A stretch of DNA of 64,000 nt from Spirosoma rigui (lineage in GTDB: Bacteria > Bacteroidota > Bacteroidia > Cytophagales > Spirosomataceae), in assembly GCF_002067135.1 (NCBI RefSeq), contig NZ_CP020105.1, positions 372,001 through 436,000 of the forward strand, given 5' to 3'. Of this stretch, positions 43,107 to 50,752 are shown one piece after another. Below the pieces are notes generated by a model. It was not told where the DNA came from, ran no database searches, and saw only the letters and a list, made by a program, of their open reading frames with translations. Each line of letters starts with the position of its first letter. Within the stretch, counting starts at the first letter, position 1. The translations under genes and the position numbers were made by a program.

Positions 43107-43180
43107 GGGCTTGTAACTCAGTTGGTTAGAGTGCCTGACTCATAATCAGTAAGTCCCTGGTTCGAGTCCAGGCTGGCCCA
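43107..43180 (+). tRNA. tRNA-Met (anticodon CAT; may be tRNA-Ile2)
   Basis: A complete cloverleaf can be drawn: D-arm with AGTTGGTTA, anticodon stem-loop CTGACTCATAATCAG with anticodon CAT, T-arm CCTGGTTCGAGTCCAGG, acceptor GGGCTTG against CTGGCCC (one G-U pair and one T-T mismatch), discriminator A. The 3' CCA is not encoded. The CAT anticodon allows elongator Met or, if lysidine-modified, Ile2; the first base pair G1-C72 excludes initiator type. Good promoter upstream and terminator downstream. Confidence 0.93.
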
Positions 43181-43183
43181 CTT

Positions 43184-43228
43184 CACAAAAAAAGCGCTTA
43201 CAAATGACTTGTAAGCGCTTTTTTTGTG
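43184..43228 (+). terminator. Terminator of the tRNA gene
   Basis: A perfect 20-bp stem (43184-43203 with 43209-43228), loop ATGAC, with A7 on the left and T7 on the right arm. It starts 4 bp after the tRNA. It marks the border to the A+T-rich lasso island. Confidence 0.9.
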
Positions 43229-43433
43229 GATTCACGGCGTGGATCACACAATTTTAACTACCAGGAATAGGCTTCTTTCAGAAGAAACTTTTAATAGGTT
43301 GTGGTATATTGTACAAATAAGCTACACTACCCTTGCCAATTAAACCGCTCACGTTAGCCTACTCTATTCACTATTTATTAAAGAGTTTATCGGTATGTAA
43401 TCGACGGAGTAGCCCATTACGTGCAGACAAATT

Positions 43434-44693
43434 TTACGCCCTATGTTTCCTGAAGAGGCAGTAAATCCACAATAAAGGAGCTATAACATAATTCAAAGCA
43501 AATAATTTATCATTAACTGAATAAATGCGCCAATAATCAGGGTTAATAAAAAACTTTTTGACGGTAGTATAAATGGCTTTAGAACCAGCCAGTAAATAGA
43601 TTGCCTGGTGAAAATAGACTACTTTTTTTACGGTTAATCTGAATGCTTTTAGAGAGGAAAGAGGACTCAAACTTGGGAGCGTAGTGGTGTTTATAAAGAA
43701 GATGGATGTCTCCGTAAGCTTGGAAAGTTGTGTATCTTCCTGTATGGCATCCTGAATAGGTTTGGGAAGATCGACTTTAAAAAGTAGATGAGCTAATTGA
43801 CATCCTTCTAGTACACATCGCTCTACATGGCTTTCAAGGGCTATTTCATAGGCATTCACGATAAAATCCTGGCCTTCTTTTTCAATAATCCGTACGATAT
43901 CCAATACCCAGAATAGCCTTTTCCATTGATGCGTACTCCCATGAACGCACAGGTATATAAAGTTTATAGAGCTGGATAATATCGAAATATGTAAACCACT
44001 AATGTGGTGAGCTATACTGTTTGGCCAAATCGTATGCTCTATATTCTCGGCTTCTATAGTCGACGTGAACAATTTCCAATGTAATTCTACTTGAATATCA
44101 GTTGCCTGATTATATAAATGATAATGGTGGAATGTTTTTTGGTATAGACTTTTCTGTTTAGGCGTTTCCCACAACGTTTCTGATAAGGTATAGCCCAGAT
44201 TTAAAAGTACCTGATACGCAGTTTCCAGATCACCGGGCTTAACTAAAATATCTAAATCATTGCACTCCCTCTCCGTATAGTCGTCGTAGTAAAGCTGCCC
44301 AAGTAATGGCCCTTTCAGCGAAATCAGATCTATATTTTTTTGTTGAAATAGCTTCACAATACGGCATAGCTCAGCCATGTGACGTAACATTCTGAGCTTA
44401 CTGGCGGTGTATTCACTTTTTAACGGGGGAGCAACAAATAAGGAAGAGAAGGGTGTGTTATTTACCCTTGAATAGAAGACAATTGATAAACGGTGACTAT
44501 CGAGAACATGGATAAGCTTATCCATGTTCGGATACGTATCCCTGTCTGATTTGAATGCCTGCCTGGAGGTTAACGTTTGAAGGATAAACCGTGTCTCTAC
44601 GTCTAAACGGGAGACCATGTCTGTGTTGACAGCACCATTTACCTGCATCTTATCAGGTAAATACGGCAATCTCTTTAAATTGGTCTGCTCCAC
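43434..44693 (-). CDS. Nucleotidyltransferase family protein of the lasso cluster
   Basis: 419 aa, or 404 aa if it starts at ATG 44648, just after the stop of the preceding gene; the longer form overlaps that gene by 41 bp. The central part LISLKGPLLGQLYYDDYTER followed by ECNDLDILVKPGDLETAYQV has the GxGxS-like and Asp-x-Asp pattern of the NTP_transf_5 nucleotidyltransferases. Such proteins occur in lasso clusters with a kinase (paeninodin/pseudomycoidin type), where they modify the phosphorylated C-terminus. It is the last gene of the cluster. Group transferred is unknown. Confidence 0.82.
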   Translation of the reverse strand: MEQTNLKRLPYLPDKMQVNGAVNTDMVSRLDVETRFILQTLTSRQAFKSDRDTYPNMDKLIHVLDSHRLSIVFYSRVNNTPFSSLFVAPPLKSEYTASKLRMLRHMAELCRIVKLFQQKNIDLISLKGPLLGQLYYDDYTERECNDLDILVKPGDLETAYQVLLNLGYTLSETLWETPKQKSLYQKTFHHYHLYNQATDIQVELHWKLFTSTIEAENIEHTIWPNSIAHHISGLHISILSSSINFIYLCVHGSTHQWKRLFWVLDIVRIIEKEGQDFIVNAYEIALESHVERCVLEGCQLAHLLFKVDLPKPIQDAIQEDTQLSKLTETSIFFINTTTLPSLSPLSSLKAFRLTVKKVVYFHQAIYLLAGSKAIYTTVKKFFINPDYWRIYSVNDKLFALNYVIAPLLWIYCLFRKHRA

Positions 44694-45087
44694 TTCCTCC
44701 TGTTACTACTACCGACCCGCACGTAAGCCAGGCATGCGCCAATAACTTTACGTTTTCATCATACGTCACCCCGAATACCAAAGTACTTTGTACACCGGTA
44801 AGTTGGAGAAGTAATTTGGCGGTCAAACCCTGTTCGAAGCATTTACAGCGCCAGGGTGTGTATTTGGCGACTCGCTGTAATGCCAAGCTAATTTGATTAA
44901 TGCGGGCTAACTGATGAACAGTGGGTTCCCTCGATACATACGTTGATCGTTTTCCTAGTAGGAAGGATAGCCGACTGAAGGGCACACTCTTGATCAGTAA
45001 GCTTGCTAGGCCAGTAACGAAAAAAGTAAAGGCGTACAAAGGATAATGGCCAACTTTTAGCGCAAACAGTTTGTGGGGGTACCGCAT
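44653..45087 (-). CDS. Lasso peptide leader peptidase B2 (transglutaminase-like)
   Basis: 144 aa. Member of the B2 protease family with a Cys-His-Asp transglutaminase-like fold: Cys in WRCKCFEQGLTAKLLLQLTG (about residues 80-99), His in KLLAHAWLTCGSVVVTGG, plus preceding hydrophobic N-terminal segment. It cuts the leader from the lasso precursor before ring closure. It works with the separate RRE protein encoded 8 bp upstream, since in this cluster B is split in two. The order A-B1-B2 follows transcription. Confidence 0.9.
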   Translation of the reverse strand: MRYPHKLFALKVGHYPLYAFTFFVTGLASLLIKSVPFSRLSFLLGKRSTYVSREPTVHQLARINQISLALQRVAKYTPWRCKCFEQGLTAKLLLQLTGVQSTLVFGVTYDENVKLLAHAWLTCGSVVVTGGSGADQFKEIAVFT

Positions 45088-45095
45088 TGACTACT

Positions 45096-45368
45096 CTACA
45101 CTTCTGATAGTTCCGTTACTAACCCTTTTTCTACAAGATCCTGCAGAAAGCTGGAGGTATCTTCCTGACAGGTGGCTTCATCTACATCGAATTCAACCTG
45201 CAACGCCTGGCACAGAGAAGTCAATGTCATGGGAGTTGCGGTCAGCAACTCCCATATTCGCGACCCAGTTTCATCAAGACCATAGTATTCGCCTGTGCTA
45301 ATGCTCATCAACACAATTTCATCGTCAATCTTACTTTCCAACACGTCTTGTGAACAGAAGTAAACCAT
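45096..45368 (-). CDS. Lasso RiPP recognition element protein B1 (PqqD-like)
   Basis: About 90 aa from ATG 45368 (MVYFCSQDVLESKIDDEIVL). The frame extends to 45401, but the upstream codons lie in the arm of the hairpin at 45399-45457. PqqD-type winged-helix pattern: VLMSISTGEYYGLDETGSRIWELL, then a helix and FLQDLVEKGLVTEL. It would bind the precursor leader (WSVPKI region) and present it to the B2 peptidase and cyclase. Confidence 0.9.
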   Translation of the reverse strand: MVYFCSQDVLESKIDDEIVLMSISTGEYYGLDETGSRIWELLTATPMTLTSLCQALQVEFDVDEATCQEDTSSFLQDLVEKGLVTELSEV

Positions 45369-45398
45369 ATGGCCTAACATAAAGGTGTGAAAAAATAC

Positions 45399-45457
45399 CA
45401 TTAAGCATTATTAAGCTGCGGTTTAACTACAAGTTTGCGGCTTAACAATACTTAATG
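45399..45457 (-). terminator. Hairpin between lasso precursor and B1 gene (partial terminator)
   Basis: The arms 45399-45419 and 45437-45457 pair over 21 bp with three non-Watson-Crick or wobble positions (CATTAAGCATTATTAAGCTG against its partner), loop 17 nt. It lies 52 bp after the precursor stop and before the enzyme gene, a place where RiPP operons often carry a processing or attenuation hairpin that favours precursor mRNA. Function is inference. Confidence 0.65.
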
Positions 45458-45508
45458 ATGGACTAAAGCCATTACTCAAGTATTAATCCATATCAAACTT
45501 TATATAGA

Positions 45509-45637
45509 CTAAGAACTCATCATATTGCTATCGCTTGAACCAGCCCTTGGTCCACTGGTGGATTGAATCGTCAGTCGACTTTTAATTTTTGGTACACTCC
45601 ATTGTCTTTTAGATATTGTATTGTTTTTCATGCTCAT
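45509..45637 (-). CDS. Lasso peptide precursor (42 aa)
   Basis: A small gene in the 300-bp gap between cyclase and RRE genes. ATG at 45637 (or the second ATG at 45631), TAG at 45509-45511. Leader of 28 aa includes QWSVPKIKSR, matching the YxxPxL leader signature (Trp for Tyr), and ends in STS with Thr at position -2, as required in lasso leaders. Core GPRAGSSDSNMMSS: Gly1 and Asp8 allow an 8-residue macrolactam, leaving the tail SNMMSS. The C-terminal Ser fits phosphorylation by the kinase of the cluster, as known for paeninodin. The start is preceded by an A-rich leader without strong Shine-Dalgarno. The core is assigned by motif and context; no product is known to me. Confidence 0.88.
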   Translation of the reverse strand: MSMKNNTISKRQWSVPKIKSRLTIQSTSGPRAGSSDSNMMSS

Positions 45638-45696
45638 TTTTGTTTAAATTGTGTCTAAAAAACGCAGTTTTTGCTTTAATAAGCAAGTGATAGGTT

Positions 45697-47613
45697 TTAT
45701 TTTCTGTTAATGTCGAGCCATAATAAATAGGCCATTGCCTGAAAACCCTGATTAATGACAGTTGACTCATGATGTCTACTCGACTCATTATATTTACTCG
45801 TCAAGGGTTGCATGGCGTTAAGCTCCTCAAGTATGTAGTCGAGGTTTAAGTACTCTGCTCTAGGACCGCCCAGTTCATAACGGATGGCTGTTGATAAAGC
45901 CAATTTTTCGGCAAATATTCGATCCCGAAAGTCTGGTGTGTATGGGGATTTAGTTGTCCTCCACAAAATTCCGTCGGGCAGAATACCTTCCATGGCCCTT
46001 CTTATATAGCCCCTTTTGTATCCCTTGTATAGAAAATTTGCTGGTGGAGAAGCCCACAAAAATTCAATGATCCGCTTATCTAATAATGGATAGGTATGTT
46101 CCTGCTTGTAATACGAGGTTAAACAAAAGTCTCCGTTAAACCACATCACTTCCTGATCCCAGATACTGGTATAATGGTCCATTCGGTCCCAAAGTCGTTG
46201 CTGTTGGTTTTTGTGCCACTTGATGGCCTGATGCTTTGAAACGAAGCCCTCACTCACCGGGCAATCTTCGAATTGAAAGACTTTCGTTTTAGAGTTGCCT
46301 TTAATTCGTATCAAAATGTCCAGTAGTTTACCTGAAAGAAGTGGAGCAATAATACTATTCTGTATAACAGTACGATATGAGCTCTGTTCTATCTTCTTCA
46401 CTTCATTAAGTAGCTCTAAACCTCTCCCTAACCTTAATCTCTTTATGTAGTTTGAAAGTATTAAATTTCCATGGTTTGATGTCGTGCTGTCTCCCCCATA
46501 CCCACTTAACACAACCCTGGTATGCGGTGCCAATGAATGATGCAGGGCATCATCCATGTAGTAGAACGAATTTACAGGCTCATGCGTTTTATCGAACATT
46601 GCCTGTAGGTTGTGGAATACGCCAATATTTTCAGCCGAAACGTACAGAGGGATGATATTTTTTTCCTGCGCTATTACCAAGTCAATATATTCTCGTTCAT
46701 CTTCTTCAACCCCCCTGTAGTTGGGCGATAATACCGACGATGCGCTATACAAATTCTTTCCAGACTGGGCTAATTTACGGGCAGCCAAGCAGGCAATTGA
46801 TGATGAATCCAGCCCACCACTCAGGGTGATACCCACCGGAAAATTGGTATTCATCCTGTCGTCAATTGCCTGCTGGAGTAAAGCTCTAAGAGCAAGCCCG
46901 TATTCCTTCTCATCAGCAAACTTTACGATATTCTTTTTATTTCGCTCCCAATAAAGTTGGGTTATTATATTGTGGTTTTCATACCAAAGCCAGGTTGCTG
47001 GGAGCAATCGCTTAACGCCGGCAACGAACGTATCGATAGCATCTTCTCCCTCAAATTCAAGATTGATTACGTACTTCCTGAAAACGTCTTCATTTAACTT
47101 ATTGCCAACAAAGTCCAATTTCGCTATAGAACGCACTTCTGTTGAGAAAATAAAGAAATTAGGTGCATCAGCGAAAAACAACTGCCGAACACCCGTGTGA
47201 TCCCGGGCGCAGAAAAGACTTCGCTCTATTTTATCCCATATCGCAAACGCAAAGTCACCTACCAAATGGGATGTACATTGTTTTCCCCATTTTTCGAAGG
47301 CTTTTACAATCAATAAGCTATCACAGATCTTTGAATGTTCTGAAGGCGATATATTTAGTAACGTATATAGCTCCTTTCGATTGTCTATTCGTGCATCAGC
47401 TGTAATTACCCAGTGGTGATAAACCAGCGGCATCTCCTCGAAACAGGATTCCGGCGTGTAGTGCAGCATCAAGTTGCCTAACGTAGCCCCGTCCGTTTCA
47501 AGCATACGTGCCCCATCGGGACCTCTATGCCTGAGCGACTCCAGCATGGAGTTTGTCCAGCGTTGTAGTATAGGCTGCTGGTTTTTACTAACTATTCCGA
47601 AAATACCGCTCAT
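45697..47613 (-). CDS. Lasso peptide macrolactam synthetase (asparagine synthase-like)
   Basis: 638 aa. N-terminal glutamine-hydrolase-like domain (about 1-210) begins MSGIFGIVSK: the catalytic Cys2 of asparagine synthase B is Ser2, so no ammonia would be made. The synthetase domain has the ATP-pyrophosphatase motif ITLSGGLDSSSIACLAARKL (about 240-260) and VVLSGYGGDSTTS. It activates the Asp8 side chain of the precursor as AMP ester and closes the ring onto Gly1. It overlaps the preceding gene by 4 bp (ATGA), so translation is coupled. It lies directly upstream of the precursor gene. Confidence 0.93.
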   Translation of the reverse strand: MSGIFGIVSKNQQPILQRWTNSMLESLRHRGPDGARMLETDGATLGNLMLHYTPESCFEEMPLVYHHWVITADARIDNRKELYTLLNISPSEHSKICDSLLIVKAFEKWGKQCTSHLVGDFAFAIWDKIERSLFCARDHTGVRQLFFADAPNFFIFSTEVRSIAKLDFVGNKLNEDVFRKYVINLEFEGEDAIDTFVAGVKRLLPATWLWYENHNIITQLYWERNKKNIVKFADEKEYGLALRALLQQAIDDRMNTNFPVGITLSGGLDSSSIACLAARKLAQSGKNLYSASSVLSPNYRGVEEDEREYIDLVIAQEKNIIPLYVSAENIGVFHNLQAMFDKTHEPVNSFYYMDDALHHSLAPHTRVVLSGYGGDSTTSNHGNLILSNYIKRLRLGRGLELLNEVKKIEQSSYRTVIQNSIIAPLLSGKLLDILIRIKGNSKTKVFQFEDCPVSEGFVSKHQAIKWHKNQQQRLWDRMDHYTSIWDQEVMWFNGDFCLTSYYKQEHTYPLLDKRIIEFLWASPPANFLYKGYKRGYIRRAMEGILPDGILWRTTKSPYTPDFRDRIFAEKLALSTAIRYELGGPRAEYLNLDYILEELNAMQPLTSKYNESSRHHESTVINQGFQAMAYLLWLDINRK

Positions 47614-48686
47614 ACTTCCTGATACGTAATAGAAACAGACGGTTGTAACATGCCTTTCCGATATAGTTCGTCGATTGGAATCTCCAGATTTAACATGATT
47701 TGGTAAGCATGATCGATAATCGATTTAGTCGTTCGGGCTCCATCGAATCTGGCCAAAAACGAGTAAGCAATCGGGTTTATCGTTGCCTGCTGATCGCCCA
47801 GCGTGAGTATACACTCAGAAGGGCTATGCTGAACAATCTGTATGTCATTATGTAGACATAAATAGTCAGGAATAATCGTTTGTGAGAAGGTATCCAGCAA
47901 TTCGGTGATGCTTTGAGCGAGTATTACCTGATTATGCCCACACAAGTCAGTGAATTTTTGCGCGTCCAGTGAGGCTACGATTTCATAGCTCCGGATGTAC
48001 AAAGCTTCTTCGTTCCCTTCCCAACCCTGCCATAATGTACTGTAAGCTTCCTGATTGGTTTGTCGACCATCTGTTTCAATCTCGAAATCAATTGACTTTA
48101 TAGGTACCGTTTTCAGGGTTCTGGCTGGAATACCTAATTGATAGAGTGCAAAATTAGAAAGCACGTTTTCTACCATCTTAAGATACCCGTTCGTGGCTTT
48201 CCAAAACGCTTTACCATGGCTACCACCAACCGAAAAACAGAAGTGGGTTGAACACAAATTTTCACGATAGTCCCATATAGTGCAATTTCCCTTATCCAAA
48301 TAAGGGCATTTGGCCAATTCAGAATTGTTAGCCATCACCCCTTTGTCCTGATCACCAGAAGGTAGTTTATCTTGTTCTTTATGCCACCATCTTGGCGGCA
48401 CTATACCGTATGGTGTTACGCCTTGTTTGCTTTGTATTAGCTGTCTTATCCGCTTTTTGCCTTCTTCCATTGCCGGACGGCTATCCTGCAATATACCGCC
48501 TACCAGATAATTGGCTAAATGTGGATAATAGTTGCAACACTTTGTATCGAGGTACGGACTTTTGGGCGAGCGGCAAATATTGCAGGCAGAACAGGTAGCC
48601 CACTTCTCTTCCGGAAACTCTTTTTCGATAAAATCCGGAAAAAAGTTATGGTAAAGCGGTGGTAGTTTTGATTTTAATTGTGGCAT
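47610..48686 (-). CDS. Cysteine-cluster (YkgJ-like) protein of the lasso cluster
   Basis: 358 aa, no family name that I can assign with certainty. The N-terminal half has nine Cys in spaced groups: CSACNIC (32-38), KCC (50-51), and KCPYLDKGNCTIWDYRENLC (126-145) with HFC (150). This CxxC...C-x7-C-x9-C-x4-C pattern resembles YkgJ-type zinc or iron-sulfur binding domains. The C-terminal 70 residues (NPIAYSFLARFDGARTTKSI to ELYRKGMLQP) look like a small winged-helix domain, perhaps a leader-binding RRE-like module. It is translationally coupled to the cyclase, so a role in modifying or handling the lasso precursor is likely. Chemistry unknown. Confidence 0.7.
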   Translation of the reverse strand: MPQLKSKLPPLYHNFFPDFIEKEFPEEKWATCSACNICRSPKSPYLDTKCCNYYPHLANYLVGGILQDSRPAMEEGKKRIRQLIQSKQGVTPYGIVPPRWWHKEQDKLPSGDQDKGVMANNSELAKCPYLDKGNCTIWDYRENLCSTHFCFSVGGSHGKAFWKATNGYLKMVENVLSNFALYQLGIPARTLKTVPIKSIDFEIETDGRQTNQEAYSTLWQGWEGNEEALYIRSYEIVASLDAQKFTDLCGHNQVILAQSITELLDTFSQTIIPDYLCLHNDIQIVQHSPSECILTLGDQQATINPIAYSFLARFDGARTTKSIIDHAYQIMLNLEIPIDELYRKGMLQPSVSITYQEV

Positions 48687-48718
48687 AATACGGGCAGAAA
48701 TGTCCCTGAATAAATACG

Positions 48719-49537
48719 TTAAGAACCAAGCAATTCATTCAGGGCGTATAGTCTACTCGACCCTTGTTTTTGGGGAACAACCTCATCCAATTGCGGAATT
48801 CCAAAAATTTGAGCCCAGTTCTTGGGTTTTGATAATGCTAAGGTGCCTTTGGGAACATAATGCAAAAATAATAAATGGCAAAAATTATCTTTCGTCGTTC
48901 TTACTATTCGCTCTCTATAATGCCACTGACTACTACCCGAAAATAGAAGACTATCACCTGGTTCAAGCGTAAACGATGTAAAACGGTGTTTGGGATCTTT
49001 TTTTATATGGTCTTCCCAATCATTGCCCGTATAATCAAAGTTTTCAGGCCATGGAACAATTTGGCTAAAGTGAATTGGCCATGGTGCCGATTGATCAATA
49101 CAAATATCTAACGTCCACTTTGCTTGTGGAGCATCCATGTGTATTGCACACACACCAAAATTATTATATAAGCTCAAAAAGTTATAACATGGCTCTACTT
49201 CTTCGCCAACGTTTTCACTCACTATTTGGGTGAGTTCATGCTGTAGTTGTTTAAAATAAGGAAGGTCGTGCATAATGAGACGGCCAAAATTGAAAAACTC
49301 TTGTTTCTCATAGTCGTTCATTTTTATGCTCTTTATATGTTCTTTAATTTCACATAGTTTTTCCTCCGAAAGTAAATTTCCAACCGTAACAACGTTGAAT
49401 TCAGGATTAGTCCGAAATACGGATAGCTTGCCTTCAAACTCCGACAGTCGTTCGGGATAATGTTCCGCAATGAAGTCTTTTACTTTTTTATATGTAGCAA
49501 GCCACGGCGAATCATACCAGGGGAGATTAATTTCCAT
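48719..49537 (-). CDS. Fe(II)/2-oxoglutarate-dependent oxygenase-like protein
   Basis: 272 aa. Central jelly-roll pattern: metal ligands His-x-Asp in GVCAIHMDAPQAKWTLDICI and a distal His with nearby Arg in LFSGSSQWHYRERIVRTTKD; strand LEPGDSLLFSG before it is typical of the oxygenase core. It would hydroxylate a substrate using O2 and 2-oxoglutarate. Hydroxylation of the ring Asp by such an enzyme is known for the lasso peptide canucin, so this precursor's Asp8, or Pro2, is a candidate substrate (inference). It is preceded by the kinase gene and followed by the Cys-cluster gene. Confidence 0.75.
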   Translation of the reverse strand: MEINLPWYDSPWLATYKKVKDFIAEHYPERLSEFEGKLSVFRTNPEFNVVTVGNLLSEEKLCEIKEHIKSIKMNDYEKQEFFNFGRLIMHDLPYFKQLQHELTQIVSENVGEEVEPCYNFLSLYNNFGVCAIHMDAPQAKWTLDICIDQSAPWPIHFSQIVPWPENFDYTGNDWEDHIKKDPKHRFTSFTLEPGDSLLFSGSSQWHYRERIVRTTKDNFCHLLFLHYVPKGTLALSKPKNWAQIFGIPQLDEVVPQKQGSSRLYALNELLGS

Positions 49538-49629
49538 TTTAGCTGATTATAGATTGTTAATTTGCGAAAAATACAATTTATGTTCAGGCATTAATTAACA
49601 ACTATATAGTTCGATTGAGGTCTCTTCCG

Positions 49630-50613
49630 TCAATTTACTGTATTTAATTCACCCCCACTGAAGGTCGTTTCCGTACAGCTTTGCGAATGATAGTTAGTTC
49701 TTAAATCCTCCATAACAAGTTCATACAAATCATTAATGGCAAAACAAGACGTTGGCCTCCGAAGCCGAACTACAGGAACAGATTGAGCAATAGTGCTACA
49801 AAAAACAAAATGTTCTTTTTGTAGACCGAACATAGCGATCCCTTCCAGACGAAACGTATTACTGGTCAAAGCCACTAGCTTTTCGTGACTCTTCAGAAGT
49901 TCCAGGCTTAGCACATCGTCATCGTTAGGCCAAAGCACATAGATTACCGTCAGGGGGTGTGGCTCTGACGGAAAGTTATGATGGGCAAATAGTTGTTTCT
50001 TATTCCAATCGGGCAGAATGGCAGAATAATCGGCATGCTGATATCCTATCGCATCGATGCTGTCATCCCAAAGCTTTACCCGATGACTCGACGGATAAGC
50101 GTAAGGCTTGTTGTTTTCCAGCAAGCGTACTACACACACATCATCTGACAATAAGGTATGGCCTTCTTTCAAAAATTTAGCAGCTGTTGTAGATTTACCC
50201 CACCCTGACGGTCCTATAAACATGGCTGTACCGTATTGCGTACAGATTGTGCTGCCATGAAACGGAAAAATGTGTTGTCTTAAAAGAAAAAAACCGAAAC
50301 AAGTGCCCAAGATATAGAGCCTGACCGTCGCGTAATCTACATACTCATATTTTTCAATTACCAGCCACTGGTTGTGGCTCATTACTATTCGGCCTACCCC
50401 ATCAATTGTTAATAGAATATCATCTTCATTTAACTCGTACCTTACTTCGTTTTCCCATAAAGATCCTCTTTTGCTGGTTTCCGATTCTGGTAAATGTATT
50501 GGTACGTTACCTTCAGTAATAACAACATCTGCTTTGCAAGCCACGGTTTCAGCTAATTCTGGAAAATCCAGACTGGATGCTACAACCAGATGATGAAGTT
50601 TATAATAATTCAT
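49630..50613 (-). CDS. HPr kinase-like protein of the lasso cluster
   Basis: About 327 aa from ATG 50613 (MNYYKLHHLVVASSLDFPEL), preceded by AAGGAAAA; the frame continues to 50655. C-terminal P-loop domain with GPSGWGKSTTAAKFLKEGH (about residues 155-173) followed by LLSDDVCVV, the HPr-kinase-type order, as in lasso kinases (PadeK in paeninodin, PsmK in pseudomycoidin). Those phosphorylate the C-terminal Ser of the precursor; the precursor here ends in SS. It is the first gene of the cluster. No HPr protein or PTS gene is near, so a role in sugar regulation is unlikely. Confidence 0.87.
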   Translation of the reverse strand: MNYYKLHHLVVASSLDFPELAETVACKADVVITEGNVPIHLPESETSKRGSLWENEVRYELNEDDILLTIDGVGRIVMSHNQWLVIEKYEYVDYATVRLYILGTCFGFFLLRQHIFPFHGSTICTQYGTAMFIGPSGWGKSTTAAKFLKEGHTLLSDDVCVVRLLENNKPYAYPSSHRVKLWDDSIDAIGYQHADYSAILPDWNKKQLFAHHNFPSEPHPLTVIYVLWPNDDDVLSLELLKSHEKLVALTSNTFRLEGIAMFGLQKEHFVFCSTIAQSVPVVRLRRPTSCFAINDLYELVMEDLRTNYHSQSCTETTFSGGELNTVN

Positions 50614-50752
50614 ATAATTTTTCCTTACTGCATACTCACAGGCTGAGCTTACCAAGAGGATATCAGCTTAATCAATTAACCTCGATTCAACAATCTAGTA
50701 CATGGGATTCGATTCATGATATTCCAGTCAAGCAGACATTTCACCACTCTTT

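Follow-up and report, generated by a model that had tools for sequence, protein, structure and literature searches.

A lasso-peptide gene cluster in Spirosoma rigui encodes a cysteine-rich protein with a predicted leader-binding domain

Results

The cluster

We analyzed a stretch of 64,000 nucleotides ("the window") from Spirosoma rigui (assembly GCF_002067135.1, contig NZ_CP020105.1, positions 372,001 to 436,000 of the forward strand; the genome is one contig of 5.83 Mb). A single run of genes on the minus strand, from 50655 down to 43434 in window coordinates, is a lasso-peptide cluster. In order, it encodes an HPr-kinase-like kinase (K), a predicted 2-oxoglutarate (2OG)-Fe(II) dioxygenase (Ox), a cysteine-rich protein (the Cys protein), the lasso cyclase (C), the precursor peptide (A), a PqqD-like leader-recognition domain, or RRE (B1), a leader peptidase (B2) and a nucleotidyltransferase (NT). 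We saw no gene for a transporter in this run. An earlier note on this DNA had placed the genes at these positions and had recognized the lasso cluster, and we confirm both; its emphasis on the unusual set of genes turned out to be half right. Our main point is that the Cys protein has a predicted RRE of its own.

The Cys protein and its relatives

The Cys gene (47610..48686, minus strand) and the cyclase gene have 4 bases in common, as fits the earlier note's claim that the two are coupled. The protein has a YkgJ-like Cys-cluster part (residues 1-268) and a predicted C-terminal RRE (residues 274-353). Nine cysteines lie between residues 32 and 150, and three more are in the last third. Among 5.8 billion proteins, our search picked out 44 members, the protein itself being one. 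Two sequences were left out of the alignment (43 rows): P0003, a piece of the window's Cys protein, and P0044, which is partial and has a PF14907 domain. Eight cysteines are conserved: C127, C135, C145 and C150 in all rows, and C32, C35, C50 and C51 in at least 90% of them. Many Gly, Trp, Pro, Arg and Glu residues are conserved as well, and G63, G76, P92, R141, W162, E173, W219 and W222 are invariant.

This family has no Pfam or NCBIfam model. None of the 43 aligned members has a credible match in Pfam (the scattered matches have E values of 0.01 at best and each occur in one or two members), and none matches an NCBIfam model at E = 0.1. We rejected membership in the YkgJ family (PF03692), because 0 of the 43 match its profile at E = 0.1 and there is just a distant profile-profile match. 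In that comparison (which had a YkgJ set of 9 rows and a filter that removed L093 and L094), both Cys-rich families have a CPxxD...C.I...R...C block. YkgJ proteins have a CxxCxxCC motif, whereas the first block of the Cys protein reads CxxCxxC...CC, and the predicted RRE is an addition.

In the predicted structure, about 80 residues at the C-terminus of the Cys protein take up a PqqD-like fold. TigE, MccB, PbtF and ThcOx, from the rows of the fold comparison, likewise have an RRE-type domain that is joined to, or works with, a modifying enzyme. In the window's protein, the predicted RRE is C-terminal and its partner is the Cys cluster.

As a side observation, small PF03692-type genes lie near the cyclase in other lasso clusters from Bacteroidota (L063:291-866, L067:4803-5339, L068:8533-9021, L069:8292-8804, L077:7216-7461 and L085:1-378), so there is a second kind of Cys-cluster partner. 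The B2 peptidase of L012 (6674-7606) carries an N-terminal YkgJ-type domain as a fusion, and the same cluster encodes the long Cys protein.

Linkage of the Cys gene to lasso genes

The Cys gene is rare. It was found in 5 of 222 genomes from the family and in 3 of 395 from across the phylum (one of the three is a marginal, partial match). In all four of the other family genomes, it directly adjoins B1 or B2. The family also contains Runella and Rhabdobacter, whose contigs carry L014, L017 and L018. More broadly, of the 13 other distinct loci that we compared, 9 have lasso genes adjoining the Cys gene. The neighbor is B1 or B2 at L008, L011, L012, L014, L015, L017, L018 and L019; at L013, which is on a short contig, the Cys gene is with a kinase and a cyclase. 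A kinase is present at 8 of the 13 loci and a nucleotidyltransferase at 5. L008 and L014 have B1, B2 and the Cys gene (along with K and NT in L008), with no adjoining cyclase and no recognizable precursor; there, the Cys protein may act on another peptide.

The exceptions are L016, L020, L021 and L022. The contig of L016 ends just upstream of the Cys gene. A precursor-like open reading frame remains there (L016:117-266); it has T at -2, and its ring might join S1 to E9. The other three loci hold the lowest-scoring relatives (25-33% identity), and L022 is on a contig of 5.4 kb. However, L019, at 31% identity, is still in a lasso cluster.

In a maximum-likelihood tree of 46 cyclase-like proteins, the window's cyclase groups with those of L011, L012 and L013 (support 98/92). 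This clade is nested within a group (100/98) that also holds three clusters in which the Cys gene is absent. The Runella cyclases form a separate group (100/100). The presence of the Cys gene requires 4 changes on this tree, 3 of which are forced by the starred branches. (L009 was omitted since it is from the same genome as L014, and L015, L019 and L014 are on long branches whose placement is unsure.) Because the cyclases from Cys-bearing clusters fall in separate groups, with several changes of label, their sequences indicate that the coupling does not derive from one shared cyclase ancestor alone. L059, from a relative of Runella, has a remnant of the Cys gene between the cyclase and B1 (L059:5277-5489), which encodes the last 60 residues and is 97% identical to the protein from R. 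aurantiaca. Judging from this sequence, the gene was lost recently.

Methionine in the cores

Predicted cores from clusters with the Cys gene are rich in methionine: 19 of 162 residues, as compared to 2 of 404 in clusters without it (the count starts at a set distance past the leader proline). By cluster, methionine is present in 7 of 8 versus 2 of 14 (P = 0.0015, Fisher exact test, ignoring kinship). One of the two methionines in the group without the Cys gene, in L054, would by prediction be the residue at -1, and L059 has a methionine-containing core with just the 60-residue remnant. The counts have some caveats: precursors were picked by motif and by eye, which might bias them; L018 repeats L007; L074 supplies 8 of the 26 precursors in the group that lacks the Cys gene; there was no clear precursor for L008, L014 and L015 (with the Cys gene) or L056, L067 and L085 (without it); and L061 was not extracted. 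The link between methionine and the Cys gene spans cyclase groups, but it is a correlation across a few clusters.

Core lasso genes and the precursor

The core genes are all on the minus strand. B2 (44653..45087), a transglutaminase-like leader peptidase, matches PF13471 and, at 81.6 bits, exceeds the curated cut-off (33) for NF033537 (lasso_biosyn_B2). The other two matches are below their curated bit cut-offs: B1 (45096..45401; PF05402, E = 1e-21) matches the lasso PqqD model NF033536 at 74.3 bits (E = 6e-21, cut-off 80), and the isopeptide cyclase (45697..47613), which is asparagine-synthetase-like (PF00733) and has an SGGLDSS motif, matches NF033535 at 417.5 bits (E = 1e-124, cut-off 525).

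Precursor A (45509..45637, minus strand) has 42 amino acids. As read from the sequence, it has the pattern W..P.I...T-x|G, with an aromatic-x-x-Pro leader motif and Thr at -2, and ends in RQWSVPKIKSRLTIQSTS|GPRAGSSDSNMMSS. Position 8 of the predicted core, GPRAGSSDSNMMSS, holds its only acidic residue, at normal ring spacing, so the predicted product has a G1-D8 ring, a tail of six residues and a C-terminal Ser14. Homology search with A found no relatives. In another cluster (L074:12684-14926), eight lasso precursor-like open reading frames lie in a row.

The kinase, the nucleotidyltransferase and the oxygenase

K (49630..50655, minus strand) probably starts at the ATG at 50613 instead of the TTG at 50655, since a purine-rich site is directly upstream of the ATG. 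It has a partial match to the HPr kinase domain PF07475 (E = 2e-5) and a match to TIGR04352 (E = 1e-6), both under the cut-offs. It carries the H-K-D-D motif (FPFHG...GWGKST...LLSDD), as do 16 of 26 other K matches; this motif is described for paeninodin-type kinases (PMC9266682). The window shares with paeninodin the H-K-D-D kinase and a core ending in Ser, which points to a kinase of this type. Where the Cys gene is absent, 24 of 26 precursors have a core that ends in Ser (again, eight are from L074); where it is present, this holds for 5 of 8 clusters. L007, L017 and L019 have the Cys gene and K, yet their cores lack the C-terminal Ser.

NT (43434..44693, minus strand; possible start at the ATG at 44648) belongs to PF14907 (NTP_transf_5, E = 2.2e-48), which we take to be the family of PsmN as well. 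We infer a PsmN-like role from the presence of this domain alongside a kinase in the lasso cluster. In pseudomycoidin, whose cluster also has both genes, PsmK phosphorylates the C-terminal Ser and the addition of hexoses is linked to PsmN, according to the portions of PMC9266682 at hand; those portions describe no Cys-RRE protein or 2OG oxygenase for the pseudomycoidin or paeninodin clusters. The comparison to these systems in the earlier note was apt, but its surprise at finding K with NT in a Bacteroidota was overstated: both are with B1, B2 or a cyclase at six loci from the same family (L067, L068, L074, L077, L084 and L086), and the pair has been published, including in ruminal lasso clusters (PMC9266682 and PMC7533575). 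Sulfotransferase genes also lie beside lasso genes, at L015:8966-9934 (a Pfam match) and L067:3281-4187 (by an SYPKSGNTW motif only).

For Ox (48719..49537, minus strand), the best Pfam match has E = 0.11. However, the predicted structure is a double-stranded beta-helix with an HxD...H arrangement (H133, D135 and the distal H206), so the earlier note's assignment to the 2OG type was right, as judged by the predicted fold. We found 816 relatives and aligned 31 of the 120 that were listed (Ox itself is among these 120); 4 of 32 members match PF13532 at E = 0.1 (best E = 0.0048). Canucin has a 14-residue core and a 2OG-type enzyme (CanE) in its cluster, as does the window (PMC9266682). The likeness is by description: CanE hydroxylates Asp14, but residue 14 of the window's core is Ser, and the only Asp is in the predicted ring (D8). 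Ox was found in 0 of 12 other genomes that carry the Cys gene, in a search that had no positive control and included several incomplete bins. Judged by the refuting condition that the earlier note set, a lack of conservation of the accessory genes with the cyclase in related genomes, the Cys gene stands but Ox does not, and the set as a whole is not conserved.

Genomic setting

The cluster is probably an acquired island beside a tRNA gene, given the G+C content (per kilobase, 38-44% in the run, 51-59% in the left flank and 39-49% in the right flank) and the fact that DNA similarity to two genomes from the same genus stops at 43224 and 43232, just beyond tRNA-Met (43107..43181, plus strand). 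The likely boundary is within 43107-43232.

Discussion

We lean, at slightly better than even chances, towards the view that this is a complete lasso cluster whose Cys protein uses its predicted RRE to find the precursor and is a leader-guided, probably Fe-S-dependent tailoring enzyme. The mechanism is inferred from the families, the linkage and the predicted folds. The W..P leader would be held by both B1 and the second RRE. The Cys protein would work ahead of B2 and C, modifying the core most likely with a metal cluster bound by its cysteines. Since methionine-rich cores accompany the Cys gene, this step might be a methionine-directed modification, on Met11 or Met12, by a FliB/YkgJ-type cluster, which is the weakest step of the proposal. 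FliB is a [4Fe-4S] lysine methylase that acts on a protein, flagellin, and its Cys-rich motif, near the N-terminus, has been likened to PF03692; but the window's core has no Lys, the likeness is by description, and the sections of PMC8598068 that we drew on mention no RRE for FliB. Ox would hydroxylate a core residue ahead of cyclization, as CanE does; K would phosphorylate Ser14; NT might decorate the phosphate with a hexose or a nucleotide, as PsmN may; B2 would cleave after TS; and C would link G1 to D8. The earlier note's forecast of a peptide with multiple modifications thus stands as a prediction.

Several results weigh against this view. Profile comparison of the Cys protein's RRE to B1 gave no signal; L013 has the Cys gene and a core without methionine; and L060 has a methionine-containing core with no trace of the Cys gene within its 10 kb. 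The Cys protein might instead be a non-catalytic scaffold, stabilized by zinc or Fe-S, whose RRE hands the precursor over to B2, C or K. A second predicted RRE besides B1 would suit such a role, Pfam describes PF03692 as just a putative zinc- or iron-chelating domain, and the YkgJ-B2 fusion in L012 fits with delivery. But the invariant residues other than cysteine look like those of an enzyme, and most of the lasso loci that we examined lack the Cys gene, so we find a scaffold doubtful.

Two other explanations seem less probable still. It is quite unlikely that the Cys and Ox genes are passengers, or have their function elsewhere, in what would then be a lasso cluster of the usual kind with a kinase and a nucleotidyltransferase. 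K and NT do recur in this family of bacteria, Ox is rare in the phylum, and one Runella-group cluster retains just the remnant of the Cys gene. However, the Cys gene sits within the operon and shares bases with the cyclase gene, and clusters from two or more cyclase lineages have it next to their lasso genes. Very unlikely, in our view, is that the Cys protein supplies iron or electrons to Ox. The two genes are adjacent in the window, and two pairs of metagenomic Cys and Ox proteins come from long contigs of matching length (32,933 and 45,350), which seem to hold both, but Ox was not found in any of the 12 other Cys genomes in that uncontrolled search of partly incomplete bins, and the RRE hints that the Cys protein touches the precursor itself.

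If the Cys protein does tailor the peptide and binds the leader by a domain of its own, then it should be easy to test, because its substrate is encoded in the same operon. Our searches of an open-access library found no paper that describes this set of genes or the Cys-protein family. A bolder proposal, which we consider unlikely, is that these proteins are a new class of enzymes for ribosomally synthesized and post-translationally modified peptides: Fe-S tailoring enzymes outside the radical-SAM families, with their own RRE, that modify methionine (for instance, by S-methylation to a sulfonium) in methionine-rich lasso peptides of Bacteroidota. A family that has no match in the family libraries we used, is found with two or more cyclase lineages and goes along with methionine-rich cores suggests a concrete experiment, with an enzyme, a substrate and a mass shift to look for. 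It might bring metal-cluster chemistry to lasso peptides and a biochemical role to YkgJ-like proteins.
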